Under the pieces are notes generated by a model. The model was not told where the DNA came from. It saw only the letters and a program-made list of their open reading frames with translations, and ran no database searches. A stretch of 64,000 nucleotides of DNA from Halichondria panicea (Eukaryota; Porifera; Demospongiae; Suberitida; Halichondriidae): the NCBI RefSeq assembly GCF_963675165.1, contig NC_087390.1, positions 2,556,001 to 2,620,000 on the forward strand, read 5' to 3'. Made by a program: the position numbers and the translations under genes. The stretch's first letter is position 1; each line of letters starts with the position of its first letter. This document shows, piece by piece, positions 641 through 63,383 of this stretch.

Positions 641-1006
641 ATGGACTTCAACCAAGACCAAGCATCAATGGAGCTTAGTTTGCAAAGCACTAGAGATGCC
701 AGTCTCTCCATAGAATGCAGTGAGGCACCAAGCAGTTGTTCTGAGCTGGTGATTGGACTGCAAAACACTACCAAAGTCTACACTTGCACTGTTGCTCCAA
801 GATTACAAGCTACTGTTAGCTTACCCATGCAAGTGCAAGCTACCCAGCTGATCACAAGAGCTGTTGATTATCGATCTAAGCTTGTCACTGGACTGGAAAA
901 CTGTATCAAGTTGGTTCGATGCACTAAAGTAGTGCAACAAGAGACTGACTGCACTGCAAGTGCAGCGATGACACTGGCTAAAAGAGACATTCTGATTCGC
1001 CGATAA
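641..1006 (+). CDS. SELVxG-repeat small protein, copy 1 (intact)
   Basis: This 121-residue ORF belongs to a family repeated nine times in the window. It starts MDFNQDQASMELS and ends with a basic tail (AKRDILIRR). Two internal repeats can be seen: one begins SELVIGLQN (about residue 35), the other KLVTGLENC (about residue 80). Each is followed by a Lys and a Cys-Thr pair. No signal peptide, membrane segment or known domain was recognised. Other copies sit in the intron between EFTUD2 exons s and t; here only a remnant of exon t follows (2192). A TATA box lies just upstream. Function is unknown. Persistence of the reading frame in four copies suggests either recent duplication or selection. 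Confidence 0.55.
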   Translation: MDFNQDQASMELSLQSTRDASLSIECSEAPSSCSELVIGLQNTTKVYTCTVAPRLQATVSLPMQVQATQLITRAVDYRSKLVTGLENCIKLVRCTKVVQQETDCTASAAMTLAKRDILIRR

Positions 1007-4031: not shown

Positions 4032-4417
4032 ATGCAACAAGCTAGTCTCAAGTATTTCTCCTACAACCCAGACCAAGCATAAATAAGGATTATAGTTTCC
4101 AAAGCACTGGATGCAGCAGTCTCTCCATAGAATGTACATGTAGTGAAGCATCAAACAGCTGTTTTGAGCTGGTGATTGGACTACAAAACACTACCAAAGT
4201 CTGCACTTGCACTGTTGCTGAACGATTACAAGCTATACTGTTAGCTCACCCATGCAAATGCAAGCTACCCAACTGATCACACGGAGAGCTATTAATTATC
4301 GATCTGAACTTATCACTGGACTGGAGAACTGTATCAAGTTGGTTCGATGCACTAAATTCATTCAACAAGAGACTGACTGCACTGCAAGTGGAGCGATGAC
4401 GCTGGCTATTCGCTGAT
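4032..4417 (+). pseudogene. SELVxG small-protein copy 2, broken
   Basis: It begins MQQASLKYF like the other s-t intron copies and lies after exon s. A stop near the start (CATAAATAAGG) and indels break the frame. The repeat cores and the terminal CGCTGATAAC remain visible. A TATAAAG word lies about 40 bases upstream. Confidence 0.7.
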
Positions 4418-4687
4418 AACTATGCAAACTATATATTCCTTTGTATATATACCTCTTTTGTTCATCATCTGTAGACATCTTGCTTCTTGCTGTTTTGTTG
4501 ACTGTCTTAATATTTTTATTGCCATTACTGACTTCTGATAAGTGCATGATTTATTAGGGATGGTGTGCTGTGAGATCCACTTTCGATGTGCACACTGCCC
4601 TCTTTTTTTGTAATGAAGTACCTCTGTGCATTGGGAACTCATATGGAACCAATGTGTGGCCAGTTCAGTTTCAATTTAGTATTTCAG

Positions 4688-5163: not shown

Positions 5164-5370
<207 letters not shown>

Positions 5371-12180: not shown

Positions 12181-12498
12181 TTATCTTATTACTGCTATTT
12201 CAAGTCCTTCAAGCACCATGACTCCACTGGAGGGGTTAGTTTCTTGCTCGGGAGTGTGTCCATCTTGTGCATCGATTAGTGCAGCATCTTGCAGTGTTGT
12301 AGCTGCAGTTTCTTGTAGTGTTGTGTTTGGATGAGTGATCATTTTGCAGTTCAGAGGCAGTTTCATTCCAATCACCATTTCTGTTGCTTGCAACACAACA
12401 TTTTGCACATTGCCATGGTGATCATTGTCCTGCAGTGAGCTTTCTTGTAATGGTCTAGAAAGAGTCTTCTTTGCTGCAATATTTCTCTCACTATCCAT
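12181..12498 (-). CDS. Antisense small protein, copy 2 (intact, 105 aa)
   Basis: The ORF starts MDSERNIAAKK and ends LEGLEIAVIR. Its centre (TEMVIGMKLPLNCKM then LQETAATTLQD) resembles the SELVTGLENCIKLV...VQQET repeat of the sense-strand family, so the two may be related. It is acidic and Gln/Thr-rich, with no membrane segment or known domain. It lies antisense inside the EFTUD2 h-j1 interval of copy A. A sister ORF of 109 residues is at 34038-34367. Function unknown. Confidence 0.5.
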   Translation of the reverse strand: MDSERNIAAKKTLSRPLQESSLQDNDHHGNVQNVVLQATEMVIGMKLPLNCKMITHPNTTLQETAATTLQDAALIDAQDGHTPEQETNPSSGVMVLEGLEIAVIR

Positions 12499-16219: not shown

Positions 16220-16610
16220 ATGCAACAAGCTAGTCTCAAGTATTTCTTCTGCAACCAAGACCAAGCATTAATGGAGCTTAGTTTGCAAAGCACTAGTACA
16301 TGTATCTCTATAGAATGCAGCTAGTGAGGCATCAAGCAGCTGTTTTGAGCTGGTGATTGGACTGTAAAACACTACCAAAGTCTGCACTTGCACTGTTGCT
16401 GAACGATTACAAGCTACTGTTAGCTCACCCATGCAAGTGCAAGCTACCCAGCTGATCACAAGAGCTGTTGATTATCGATCTGAGCTTGTTACTGGACAGC
16501 AGAACTGTATCAAGTTGGTTCGATGCACTAAAGTTGCACAACAAGAGACTGACTGCACTGCAAGTGGAGCGATGCCACTGGCTAATAGAGACATTCCGAT
16601 TAACCGATAA
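16220..16610 (+). pseudogene. SELVxG small-protein copy 3, broken
   Basis: It starts MQQASLKYFFCNQDQALMEL in the s-t intron of copy A. Insertions after the LQST part (ACATGTAT) and a TAA where others have CAA break the frame. The second repeat and the tail (DIPINR) are retained. Confidence 0.7.
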
Positions 16611-23402: not shown

Positions 23403-24130
23403 GTGAGTGGGCGTATGGTACTGTGAGACTGCTTAGCCCTTGGTTTGGTGTCTCCTAAGACCTTTGATCTGAGCACGTACAAGTACCATGTCATAGGGCT
23501 CTCTCTAAAAGCTACATGCAGCATTGTGTGGAATGTGTACAGAGAGGAAATCGTTTTGCATGTTTGCCCGTGGTGCTTTCATTATATACATGTACGTGTG
23601 TATCAGTAATGCATCTGTGCATGGTCACTAAAGGTGGGTATAGCAACAACCAATTTTAAAACAGCTGATTTAATGCAACGGGTGCTCTATTGTTGTGTGC
23701 ACAGTTTACATTCTAATTGCTACACTGGTGTGGCTTCAACCCACTGGTTAAAGTCTCTTGTTTCCTGCCAATGTGTACAAAATCACTAGTTATTGTGTGG
23801 CCTTTATTCGAGGTAGATCTACATATTTGTAGCTAAAGTGATTCCATACCAGGAACAATTATGGAAAAGGGTCACTAGAGTAGAAAGCTAAAATTGTGAC
23901 TGGTTTGTTGTCTCTTTTTTTTTATTTTTTATAATAATTCAGCATATAGCATAGGGTATACACAATTAGCTATTAGCTAGTGTAAAGTGCATCCTAAACA
24001 GAAAATATTTAAACACATTGACAGTAACAATATCTTCTATCTCGGAAGGCTTTACTGATGACTCTGGGTGGGTGTTTAGATAGTATAAAAGATTAGTATA
24101 AAAGCTGCTAGCTATTAGTTTCGTAACACT

Positions 24131-24484
24131 ATGCAACAAAGTATTTCTCTTGCAACCAAGATGGAGCATGTCAATCTCTCCATAGAATGCAGTGAAATAT
24201 CAAGCAACTGTTCTGAGCTGGTGATTGGACTGCAAAAAAACACTACCAAAGTCTACACTTGCACTTTTGATGAAAGATTGTAACAGGCTACTGTTAGCTC
24301 ACCCATGCAAATGCAAGCTACCCAGCTAACTACAAGAGCTGTTGATTATCGATCTGAGCTAGTCACTGGACTGGAGAACTGTATCAAGTTGGTTCAATGC
24401 ACTAAAGTCGTTCAACAAGAGACTGACTGCACTACAAGTGGAGCGATGACGCTGGCTAAAAGAGACATTGTGATTCACCGATAA
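24131..24484 (+). pseudogene. SELVxG small-protein copy 4, broken
   Basis: It begins MQQSISLATKMEHVNLSIEC. An A-tract insertion (CAAAAAAACAC) and a TAA break the frame. Two TATAAAAG words (24085-24104) lie 25-45 bases upstream. No exon t follows. Confidence 0.7.
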
Positions 24485-27655: not shown

Positions 27656-27975
27656 GTGACTAAAAGGAACTGATTACTGACAAGTAATTTGGGCCTGGTG
27701 GTATACTGCAGATATCAAGATTGCAAAATAGCATACAATCTTTATATCTGTGGTTAGGCCTTAAACTTACCCCACAGTGCAACTATGACTGTATTTCTAC
27801 AATTGTATTTTGAAACCTCTGATACACTCTGAGTGCCCAATTTCCTAAAGTGTAGCTTTTTTAATGGTTATAGATGAACAATTTCAAATCTTCTGATTTT
27901 TCACAGGCATGTTTGTTCTGGAGGCTAACTTTGAATGCCCAAGTAATACCTTAAATTCTGCTCTTGGCAAAGTCA

Positions 27976-28162
27976 GCAATGGAGATAGTTTCCAAAGCAC
28001 TGGATGCAGTAGCCTCTCCATAGAATGTAGTGAAGCATCAAACAGCTGTTTTGAGCTGGTGATTGGACTACAAAACACTACCAAAGTCTACACTTGCACT
28101 GTTGCTCAAGCTACTGTTAGCTCACCTATGCAAATGCAAGCTACCCAGCTAACTACAAGCGT
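27976..28162 (+). pseudogene. SELVxG small-protein copy 5, truncated
   Basis: The first half (FQSTGCSSLSIECSEASNSC, then VIGLQNTTKVYTCTVAQATV) is present. It breaks off at 28162 against the MULE-like element, so the second repeat is lost. Confidence 0.75.
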
Positions 28163-34037: not shown

Positions 34038-34367
34038 TTATCTTATTACTCGTATTTCAAGTCCTTCAAGCACCATGACTCCACTGGAGGAGGGGTTAGT
34101 TTCTTGCTCGGGAGTGTGTCCATCTTGCACATCAATTAGTGCAGTGTCTTGCAGTGTTGTAGCTGCAGTTTCTTGCACTAATGTGTTTGGATGAGCAATC
34201 AATTTACATAGAGGTAGTTTCACTCCAATCACCATTTCTGAATTAGCTGCTACATGTAGCAACACAACATTTTGCACATTTCCATGGTGAGCATTGTCCT
34301 GCAGTGAGCTCTCTTGCACTGGTTTAAAAACAGTCTTCTTTGCTGCAACGTTTCTCTTACTATCCAT
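34038..34367 (-). CDS. Antisense small protein, copy 3 (intact, 109 aa)
   Basis: It starts MDSERN-like (MDSKRNVAAKK) and ends LEGLEIRVIR. The core NSEMVIGVKLPLCKLIAHPN then TLVQETAATTLQD matches copy 2 at 12181-12498. It lies in the h-i interval of EFTUD2 copy B, antisense. A GTATAAATAC word on the minus strand (34485-34494) lies about 120 bases before the ATG. Function unknown; no domain recognised. Confidence 0.5.
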   Translation of the reverse strand: MDSKRNVAAKKTVFKPVQESSLQDNAHHGNVQNVVLLHVAANSEMVIGVKLPLCKLIAHPNTLVQETAATTLQDTALIDVQDGHTPEQETNPSSSGVMVLEGLEIRVIR

Positions 34368-39146: not shown

Positions 39147-39235
39147 ACATTAAGGTGGCTGACCCGGTGGTGGCCTTCTGTGAGACAGTGGTAGACATCC
39201 TCTCTAAAGTGCTTTGCTGAGACACCCAACAAGAA
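39147..39235 (+). pseudogene. EFTUD2: EFTUD2 exon s (copy B), 2-bp deletion
   Basis: It reads [16 protein letters not shown], then GTAGACATCC replaces GTAGAGACATCC, leading to DILSKVLC and a TGA. 89 against 91 bases. Confidence 0.88.
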
Positions 39236-39314
39236 GTGAGTGGTATATCTTGACACATGCCGCCTGCACATCAAAGGGAGTTTTAGGGGATTTTCTACAG
39301 CTGATTAGTGAATA

Positions 39315-39421: not shown

Positions 39422-39502
39422 TTAAAGTATGTTATGTGTGGGGGTTGCTGTGATTTTATGTATATACACACCAAAACTTCGATTTATTAACATTATTTAG
39501 CT

Positions 39503-39874
39503 ATGCAACAAGCTAGTCTCAAGTATTTCTTCTTCAACCAAGACCAAGCATTAATGGAGTATAGTTTGCAAAGCACTAGAGATGTCAGTCTCTCCATAGA
39601 ATGCAGTGAAGCATCAAGAAGCTGTTCTGAGCTGGTGATTGGACTGCAAAACACTACCAAAGTCTGCACTTGCACTGTTGCTAAAGCTACTGTTAGCTCA
39701 CCCATGCAAATGCAAGCTACCCAGCTGATCACAAGAGCTGTTGATTATCGATCTGAACTTATCACTGGACTGGAGAACTGTAACAAGTTGGTGAAAGTTG
39801 TGCAGCAAGAGACTGACTGCACTGCAAGTGGAGCAATGACACTGGCTAAGAGAGACATTCCAATTCACCAATAA
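39503..39874 (+). CDS. SELVxG small-protein copy 6 (intact, 123 aa)
   Basis: It starts MQQASLKYFFFNQDQALMEY in the s-t intron of copy B, on the same strand as the host gene. The first repeat core is SELVIGLQNTTKVCTCTVA. The second, RSELITGLENCNKLV, lacks the usual RCTK. Six cysteines remain. It ends AKRDIPIHQ. It is longer at the N-terminus than copy 1. No domain recognised. Confidence 0.55.
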   Translation: MQQASLKYFFFNQDQALMEYSLQSTRDVSLSIECSEASRSCSELVIGLQNTTKVCTCTVAKATVSSPMQMQATQLITRAVDYRSELITGLENCNKLVKVVQQETDCTASGAMTLAKRDIPIHQ

Positions 39875-40120: not shown

Positions 40121-40334
40121 AAACAAATTGACAATGATATCGGAGCCTCTGGAAAAGGGACTGGCCGAAGACATCGAGGGGGAGGTGGTACAGATAGCCT
40201 GGAGCAAGAAGAAGATTGGAGAGTTCTTCCAGAGCAAATACGACTGGGACTTGTTGGCAGCTCGCTCTATCTGGGCGTTTGGACCGGAGGCTACCGGACC
40301 CAACATTCTGGTGGATGACACTCTGCCTTCTGAG
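40121..40334 (+). CDS. EFTUD2: EFTUD2 exon t (copy B), intact
   Basis: 214 bases, [20 protein letters not shown] through [20 protein letters not shown] to LVDDTLPSE; the protein equals that of copy A. CCCAG acceptor, GTGAGG donor. Confidence 0.92.
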
Positions 40335-51945: not shown

Positions 51946-52199
51946 TACAACTGATTATGAATTATAAATTGCGTTGTGTGTGGTTATAAAAAGCTACAGC
52001 AGCTGATTCGTCAATTTAAGGATTCCCTACAGCAGCTGATTCCCTAGCAAAGAATTTGCATTGTGTGTGGGTGTTGAGATAATACAAAAGCTATGATTTT
52101 ATTTGTTGTCTACACAGTAGCTAAAACTAGCATTATTGATGCTATTAGCTATGATAATCTAGTCTCAAGTATTTCTCCTGCAATCAATACCAAGCATCA

Positions 52200-52607
52200 A
52201 TGGAGCTTAGTTTGCAAAGTACTGGAGATGTCAGTATCTCTATAGAATGCAGTGAAGCATCAAACAGCTGTTCTGAGCTAGTGATTGAACTGCAAAACAC
52301 TACCAAAATCTCCACTTGCACTGTTGCTCCAAGATTACAAGCTACTGTTAGCTCACCCATGCAAATACAAGCTACCCAGCTGATCACAAGAGCTGATAAT
52401 CGATCTGAGCTTGTCATTGGATTTGAGAACTGTATCAAGTTGGTTCGATGCACTAAAGTCGTGCAACAAGAGACTGACTGCACTGCAAGTGGAGCGATGA
52501 TGCTGGCTAAAAGAGACATTCTGATTGAGTTGAAGGAACCGCACACAATACAGGGTACAGAGGTGGCATCGTCGCGAGTGGCAGCCACAGCACAGGACCC
52601 AAACTGA
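52200..52607 (+). CDS. SELVxG small-protein copy 7 (135 aa, extended)
   Basis: It starts MELSLQSTGDVSISIECSEA. Both repeats are intact (SELVIELQNTTKIS and SELVIGFENCIKLVRCTK). It diverges after AKRDILIE with a new C-terminus (LKEPHTIQGTEVASSRVAAT) because the usual stop is lost. The upstream MQQASLKYF start is destroyed. Lies after exon s, but with no exon t until 57066. Confidence 0.5.
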   Translation: MELSLQSTGDVSISIECSEASNSCSELVIELQNTTKISTCTVAPRLQATVSSPMQIQATQLITRADNRSELVIGFENCIKLVRCTKVVQQETDCTASGAMMLAKRDILIELKEPHTIQGTEVASSRVAATAQDPN

Positions 52608-56469: not shown

Positions 56470-56840
56470 ATGCAACAAGCTAGTCTCAAGTATTTCTCAA
56501 CCCAGACCATGCAAGCATCAATGGAGTATAGTTTCCAAAGCACTGGATGCAGTAGTCTCTCCATAGAATGTAGTGAGGCATCAAACAGCTGTTCTGAGCT
56601 GGTGATTGGACTACAAAACACTACCAAAGTCTGCACTTGCACTGTTGCTCAAGCTACTGTTAGCTCATGCACCCATGCAAATGCAAGCTACCCAGCTAAC
56701 TACAAGAGCTGATTATTGATCTGAGCTAGTCACTGGACTGCAGAACTATATCAACGATGCACTAAAGTCGTGCAACTAGAGACTGACTGCACTACAAGTG
56801 GAGCGATGACACTGGCTAAAAGAGACATTCTGATTCACCG
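56470..56840 (+). pseudogene. SELVxG small-protein copy 8, broken
   Basis: MQQASLKYFSTQTMQASMEY start in the s-t intron of copy C. Deletions in the second half (NYKS, then stop) break the frame; the tail AKRDILIHR survives out of frame. Confidence 0.7.
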
Positions 56841-57065
56841 ATAACTGTGCAAACTATTAAGTCGTTTTCCTTTGAACCTCTTTAAATAGCATTTTTTTCT
56901 GCATCTGTAGACGTTTTTGCTGCCATTACTGACTTCTGATAAGTGGTACTGATAATTTATTATGGATGGTATGCAGTGACTACCCACTTTCGGTGTGCAC
57001 AATGAACTTGTCCCCTTGCTCTTCATTCAATTTTTTCTTTAATTACTTTCTACTCCCATTTCCAG

Positions 57066-61509: not shown

Positions 61510-62345
61510 ATGAGCAGAGTTGTGTGGTGCTATTGATGACCTTAGCCTGTGTGGTGCTTTAGGTTGTCTAACTTGTCTTTATAGGTTGAGCAGTTGTGGT
61601 GCTATTGTTGACCACAGTCTTTAGGTATGTGAGCAGTTGTGTGGTGCTATTGTTGACCACATACAGCCTTAGGTTTATGTGAGCAGTTGTGTGGTGCTAT
61701 TGTTGACCAGTACAGCCTTAGGTTTATGTGAGCAGTTGTGTGGTGCTATTGTTGACCACAGTCTTTAGGTATGTGAGCAGTTGTGTGGTGCTATTGTTGA
61801 CCACAGTCTTTAGGTATGTGAGCAGTTGTGTGGTGCTATTGTTGACCACGTACAGCCTTAGGTTTATGTGAGCAGTTGTGTGGTGCTATTGTTGACCACG
61901 TACAGCCTTAGGTTTATGTGAGCAGTTGTGTGGTGCTATTGTTGACCATGCACGTACACCCTTAGGTTTATGTGGGCATGTGTGATGCTATTGTTGACCA
62001 CGTACAGCCTTAGGTTTATGTGAGCAGTTGTGTGATGCTATTGTTGACCACGTACAGCCTTAGGTTTATGTGAGCAGTTGTGTGATGCTATTGTTGACCA
62101 CGTACAGCCTTAGGTTTATGTGAGCATGTGTGGTGCTATTGTTGACCACGTACAGCCTTAGGTTTATGTGAGCAGTTGTGTGATGCTATTGTTGACCACG
62201 TACAGCCTTATAATTAGGTTTGTGTGAGCAGTTGTGTTGTGCTATTGTTGACCAGTACAACCTTAGGTTTATGTGAGCATGTGTGGTGCTATTGTTGACC
62301 ACAGTCTTTGGTTGAGCAGTTGTGTGATGCTATTGTTGTGCTATA
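61510..62345. repeat. Minisatellite, about 50-bp unit, 15-17 copies
   Basis: Unit: TTATGTGAGCAGTTGTGTGG, TGCTATTGTTGACCACGTAC, AGCCTTAGGT. Variants replace CGTACAGCC by CAGTCTTTAGG. No gene. Confidence 0.92.
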
Positions 62346-63020: not shown

Positions 63021-63383
63021 ATGGACTTCAACCAAGACCAAGCATCAATGGAGCTTAGTTTGCAAAGCACTAGATATGCCAGTCTCTCCATAGAATGCAG
63101 TGAGGCATCAAGCAGTTGTTCTGAGCTGGTGATTGGACTGCAAAACACTACCAAAGTCTACACTTGCACTGTTGCTCCAAGATTACAAGCTACTGTTAGC
63201 TTACCCATGCAAGTGCAAGCTACCCAGCTGATCACGAGAGCTGATTATCGATCTGAGCTTGTCACTGGACTGCAGAACTATATCAAGTTGGTTCGATGCA
63301 CTAAAGTAGTGCAACAAGAGACTGGCTGCACTGTAAGTGCAGCGATGACACTGGCTAAAAGAGACATTCTGATTCGCCGATAA
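63021..63383 (+). CDS. SELVxG small-protein copy 9 (intact, 120 aa)
   Basis: Nearly identical to copy 1 (MDFNQDQASMELSLQSTR start, AKRDILIRR end), with a few substitutions and one codon fewer (RADYRS for RAVDYRS). The flanking match extends from about 62.8 to 63.7 kb, interrupted only by the element present in copy 1. It is therefore the most recently duplicated pair. Confidence 0.55.
   Translation: MDFNQDQASMELSLQSTRYASLSIECSEASSSCSELVIGLQNTTKVYTCTVAPRLQATVSLPMQVQATQLITRADYRSELVTGLQNYIKLVRCTKVVQQETGCTVSAAMTLAKRDILIRR

Follow-up and report, generated by a model that had tools for sequence, protein, structure and literature searches.

A probable lineage-restricted family of small-protein genes nested in EFTUD2 and multiplied by segmental duplication in the sponge Halichondria panicea

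The stretch of Halichondria panicea DNA analysed here, 64,000 nucleotides in full and called the window below, carries repeated copies of a short open reading frame. Based on sequence comparison, we consider it probable, at roughly two chances in three, that these copies make up a single-exon, apparently lineage-restricted family of protein-coding genes that was nested in EFTUD2 and has spread by segmental duplication. The frame appears to be kept by selection; it is thus probably a genuine gene, as opposed to debris of an intron. A first-pass annotation of the same DNA had raised this very choice, between an independent nested gene and intron debris; an omega (dN/dS) of 0.53 and open frames outside the locus favour the gene, but nesting turned out not to be family-wide.

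Searches with blastn and tblastn placed nine copies in the window, near positions 641, 4032, 16220, 24110, 27978, 39503, 52158, 56470 and 63026, which confirms the first-pass count of nine with four open (641, 39503, 52200 and 63021; Table 1). The whole genome (131 Mb, 39 contigs) holds 15 family copies and two short fragments, C14:2714093-2714174 and a piece on contig C9, which are left out of the count of 15. The genome searches gave 19 and 17 rows, more than the number of copies because broken copies were split and fragments counted, and the copy counts are lower bounds. All 15 copies lie on the + strand; ten are open from a conserved ATG and five are broken. Thirteen are clustered within 192 kb (C14:2546822-2738956), and the two outlying copies are found at C14:229383, on the same contig as the window and 2.3 Mb away, and at C3:4130596, on another contig. 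At both of these sites the frame is open, so that a similar frame does occur outside the locus; its absence there is what the first-pass annotation had named as a point against its reading. A search with the protein of the C3 copy up to E 10 found no further family member. The window also contains a pair of similar small ORFs on the - strand (12181-12498 and 34038-34367; 105 and 109 aa), which by eye are unrelated to the family.

Table 1. Family copies in the window and landmarks around the focal copy (window positions)
Feature	Position	Strand	Remarks
Open copy	641..1006	+	conserved ATG at 668; TATAAAAAG at -90 of 668
Broken copy	4036..4426	+	1-base insertion; start lost
Broken copy in EFTUD2 s-t intron	16220..16607	+	4-base insertion, stops
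Broken copy	24110..24484	+	stops, start region lost; TATAAAAGC and GTGGGTGTTTAGAT upstream
Copy with 5' half only	27974..28160	+	
EFTUD2 exon s piece (with first intron bases)	39147..39239	+	frameshift: two bases fewer than five other copies have
Degenerate TATA word TATATACAC	39461..39469	+	-93 from conserved ATG; three mismatches to TATAAAAGC
Focal open copy	39503..39874	+	123 codons/aa from upstream ATG; 106 codons from conserved ATG at 39554
EFTUD2 exon t, 3' of focal ORF	40122..40334	+	
Open copy	52200..52607	+	135 codons; final ~25 residues unlike others; GTGGGTGTTGAGAT and TACAAAAGC upstream
Broken copy in EFTUD2 s-t intron	56470..56844	+	two frameshifts
Open copy	63021..63383	+	conserved ATG at 63048; TATAAAAAG at -91 of 63048

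The host gene is EFTUD2/SNU114, as the peptide of the exon after the focal ORF matches human hSnu114, the U5 116-kDa protein, at E 2e-38. The focal copy sits entirely within the intron that separates EFTUD2 exons s and t. Nesting in this s-t intron, which the first-pass annotation had ascribed to the family, holds for the copies at 16220, 39503 and 56470 but not for the family as a whole: by the seven EFTUD2 exon pieces searched, on which these context calls rest, the window copies at 4036 and 52158 have exon s only, the copy at 641 has a piece of t only, and three have neither. The region C14:2543-2631 kb is a partial EFTUD2 tandem array that includes 14.8-19.6, 37.9-41.8 and 55.8-58.6 kb of the window; one copy of the array is without stops in the seven pieces, and others have stops, frameshifts or missing exons. 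The EFTUD2 copy at 2543-2549 kb has all seven pieces present without stops and hosts the family copy at C14:2546822, and in the EFTUD2 copy at 2627-2630 kb exon t is interrupted by a stop. The focal ORF is open within a broken EFTUD2 copy, since exon r of that copy contains a stop and exon s lacks two bases that are present in five other copies. The family copies at C14:229k and 2717k lie 5' of decayed EFTUD2 t exons, and none of the seven exon pieces was found in 30 kb around the C3 copy. Open copies are thus present where EFTUD2 is broken (in the window and at C14:2628k), decayed (C14:229k and 2717k) or not found (C3).

The best-surviving alternative, which we nevertheless regard as unlikely, is that a chance or once-coding frame was carried along by EFTUD2 duplications and is functionless now. 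The five broken copies among 15 are consistent with such a passenger, as are the several copies that clearly moved together with EFTUD2 pieces. The pattern of codon change argues against it. Under a maximum-likelihood codon model, the ten open copies gave an omega of 0.53 (LRT 11.9, p 0.00056 against 1) over the 108 codon columns in which eight or more of the ten copies had a residue, with the five broken copies and the N-terminal extensions of two copies left out; nine open copies gave 0.55 (p 0.0014). The dN/dS comparison between copies that the first-pass annotation had suggested therefore yields a value below 1, pointing to moderate constraint, and the frame controls agree. When all six frames of the same alignment were scored, frame 0 had zero stop cells and the lowest omega of the six, and the other five had 26-110 stop cells. 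Omega was 1.43 and 1.19 in the +1 and +2 sense frames, so that among the sense frames it is below 1 in frame 0 only, and 1.13, 0.66 (p 0.028) and 1.39 in the antisense frames, of which the one with 0.66 is taken to share its wobble positions with frame 0. An antisense frame is also stop-free in the open copy at 52200 alone, and the pooled alignment has stops in all frames other than 0. By parsimony, 40, 41 and 64 changes fell at codon positions 1, 2 and 3 (p 0.022).

The distribution of gaps likewise speaks against a functionless frame. Within the frame, 18 of 23 gap runs (14 copies) are multiples of three, compared with 4 of 19 and 6 of 19 in the flanks (five local EFTUD2-linked copies); the runs partly overlap and are not all independent, and one of the five runs that are not multiples of three stands at the alignment end. 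In-frame gaps are favoured in the codon-model copies and in the gap count alike because copies were chosen as open (ten of the 14 in the gap count, from which the half copy A2583985 was left out), and the four broken copies in that count carry in-frame gaps and frameshifts alike. Pairwise NG86 ratios, which include the differing tails and extensions of four copies, ranged from 0.22 to 1.12 in the 36 pairs of nine open copies and from 0.32 to 0.73 in the 21 pairs with the 2717k, 229k or C3 copy; the pair A2556644/A2619024 has 1.12 on nine changes. In a simulation of substitutions alone, 14-34% of frames were still open once 8-15% of the C3 sequence had changed, against which the ten open copies also weigh in favour of a maintained frame.

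Identity of frame, intron and exon bears on the same alternative from both sides. Five local copies were compared with one another and with C229383 (C) and B2717802 (B), the two EFTUD2-linked copies that have decayed furthest, the frame block including about 50 bases 5' of the ATG. Frame block identity was 81-95% over all pairs and 81-89% in pairs with C or B. The 3' intron was 63-98% identical among the local copies and 44-55% identical where at least one partner was C or B; 40 pairs of unrelated sequence gave a baseline of 39-50% (median 43%). Retention of the frame where the intron is at or near this baseline is not what a passenger would be expected to show. Exon t of EFTUD2 was 94-98% identical among the five local copies; when these were paired with C or B the values fell to 87-92%, and C and B themselves matched at 79%. 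When a local copy is paired with C or B, exon t is conserved as well as the frame block or better, and the frame is ahead only between C and B (frame block 86% with four of four gaps in threes, decayed exon t 79%, intron 44%). The frame therefore clearly outlasts the intron, and it outlasts the exon only where the exon has decayed on both sides. The youngest EFTUD2-linked pair (A2546822 and A2595503) shows no extra protection of the frame (intron 98%, frame block 95%, exon 97%), and a frame that has diverged no less than its intron is a point for the passenger.

A decaying gene, functional for much of the family history and represented today mostly by recent pseudogenes, is a rather improbable account of the same data. 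It would be in line with the five broken copies, with the degraded TATA word of some open copies and with an omega of 0.44 on internal against 0.59 on terminal branches. However, a two-ratio model improves on a single ratio by only 0.26 log units, and ten copies are still open.

On the preferred reading, that of a protein-coding family under selection, the start of translation would be the ATG common to all ten open copies, which is seen as ATGGAG or ATGGAT at one alignment position. In the focal copy this shared start is the ATG at 39554, not that at 39503; frames upstream of it vary among copies, with a stop there in the copy at 52158. The predicted family protein, of which SELVIGLQNTTK is a stretch, has a computed mass of 12 kDa, a pI of 4.5-8.9 and a mean hydropathy of -0.11 to 0.13. 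Its two internal repeats, as described in the first-pass annotation, proved real in a shuffle test on the nine open copies: when the protein halves were aligned with each other, 0 of 1000 shuffles reached the score in seven copies and 6 of 1000 in the remaining two, the focal copy among them, which supports the internal duplication. In three copies examined at the DNA level, the unit alignment score was attained by 3, 0 and 678 of 1000 shuffles, a signal in two of the three.

A function by homology was sought and set aside, as no library gave a match above threshold: the best scores were 16 bits in Pfam against a cut-off of 27.5 and 19 bits in NCBIfam against a cut-off of 35, the best PHROGs match had E 0.062, and the PDB gave none by profile at E 10 and at best E 0.69 by sequence. 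Scans of IMG/VR (43 pattern matches) and of GTDB contigs (110 pattern matches) gave no relatives in viral and prokaryote contigs, respectively. Judged by titles and the opening of abstracts, none of the papers listed in the literature search deals with this small-protein family.

A TATA promoter word is common to some copies and weak in others, including the focal one. The first-pass annotation had put such a word 25-60 bases before the ATG; measured from the conserved ATG it stands at about -90 in several copies, which in the copy at C14:2628529 corresponds to -40 from the upstream ATG. In A2628529, GTGGGTGTTGAGAT and TATAAAAGC are found 105 and 91 bases before the conserved ATG, and in C229383 GTGGGTGTTGAGAT (with one mismatch) and TATAAAAGC are found at 105 and 90 bases. 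Related forms of the two words occur upstream of 2608155, 2580110 and 2560036. Upstream of the copies at 641 and 63021 the sequence is different, yet both carry TATAAAAAG at the positions given in Table 1. The word is degraded in several copies, and nothing better than a weak word precedes the focal and C3 copies, TATATACAC of the focal copy being weak because of its three mismatches to TATAAAAGC. The exact combined pattern of GTGGGTGTTGAGAT and TATAAAAGC has two occurrences in the genome, both at the family, and none on the reverse strand or in a reversed control. The stretch 5' of the ATG is by eye about as conserved as the frame, a conservation for which coding constraint alone does not account.

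That the copies are a mobile element or another inserted unit of about 400-550 bp, and not a host gene, seems very unlikely. Such a unit would account for a copy on another contig, for the 87-bp piece between histone genes and for the C3 homology to other copies, which ends near the ends of the unit (BLAST matches of the C3 copy to other copies span the unit only, and its other flank matches are repeats elsewhere). However, dispersal in both orientations was not seen: the copies lie on one strand throughout, 13 of them in a single 192-kb cluster with EFTUD2 pieces. The C3 copy, the only one whose termini were checked, is without an inverted repeat, and its one direct repeat of at least 14 bases (14 bases, of doubtful meaning) has a 3' arm that resembles sequence at C14:229k. 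By eye, part of the promoter-side word is also common to the C3 copy and C14:229k, although a processed retrocopy should not carry it, and Pfam, PHROGs and IMG/VR contain no match above threshold. A non-coding RNA gene or regulatory DNA with an incidental open frame, to which the conserved stretch before the ATG and the TATA core promoter word of some copies could point, is scarcely credible given the gaps in threes and the omega pattern, and an RNA gene is set aside on account of the fold of two copies, no more stable than shuffles (z +1.34 and +0.51), and of the lack of an Rfam match in the window.

The order of events under the preferred reading of a nested gene family may have been as follows. 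An ancestral gene would have stood in sense orientation in an EFTUD2 intron with its own promoter, its transcript probably starting about 30 bases after the TATA box and its product being a 12-kDa soluble protein in which a unit some 40 residues long occurs twice. Tandem and segmental duplication could then have multiplied the small gene along with EFTUD2 pieces, and later these pieces would have fallen into decay, whereas purifying selection would have kept many copies of the small gene open. The copies themselves, the constraint on their frame, the two units and the promoter word common to some copies are observed; transcription and translation of the copies, and the fold, cell location and biochemical role of the product, are presumed parts of this account. 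It is possible, and we offer it tentatively, that the copies represent a new family of animal proteins, built of two units some 40 residues long, whose home is an intron of a core splicing gene and which escaped its host via segmental duplication, with about ten open copies kept. Selection in much of the array may then retain the small gene rather than EFTUD2.

Lineage-restricted (orphan) small protein families typically have a short single-exon frame, moderate omega and no match in general libraries. The present family resembles them in all three respects and adds internal duplication, many paralogues and frame-keeping gap lengths. Short single-exon frames within introns are easily missed by genome annotation. 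Protein-coding genes nested in introns are also known from the LRRTM genes inside alpha-catenin genes (PMC3933685). The likeness is that a whole gene lies in the intron of an unrelated host and that guest and host can separate over time, whereas the EFTUD2 guest is short, sense-oriented, without a family in the libraries searched and multiplied with host fragments. With copies in intact, broken and absent host contexts, selection on the guest can be separated from that on the host, and the locus may offer a compact system for how small orphan genes settle in, and then escape from, an intron.

The fragment on contig C9 (C9:6417457-6417543) covers 87 bp of the second unit, over which it shares 93% identity with the window copy at 52158. 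It lies antisense in the spacer between H2A and H2B, divergent genes named by eye from their translations, and ends 75 bases before the H2B ATG. Outside this piece the 391-base spacer matched only itself in a search that skips very common words, and there is therefore no empty site for comparison. Repeats in the window include a tandem array of a 50-base unit (61587-62302, 14.6 copies), whose end lies some 0.7 kb short of the open copy at 63021, and a (GT) repeat of 102 units at 5166-5368.
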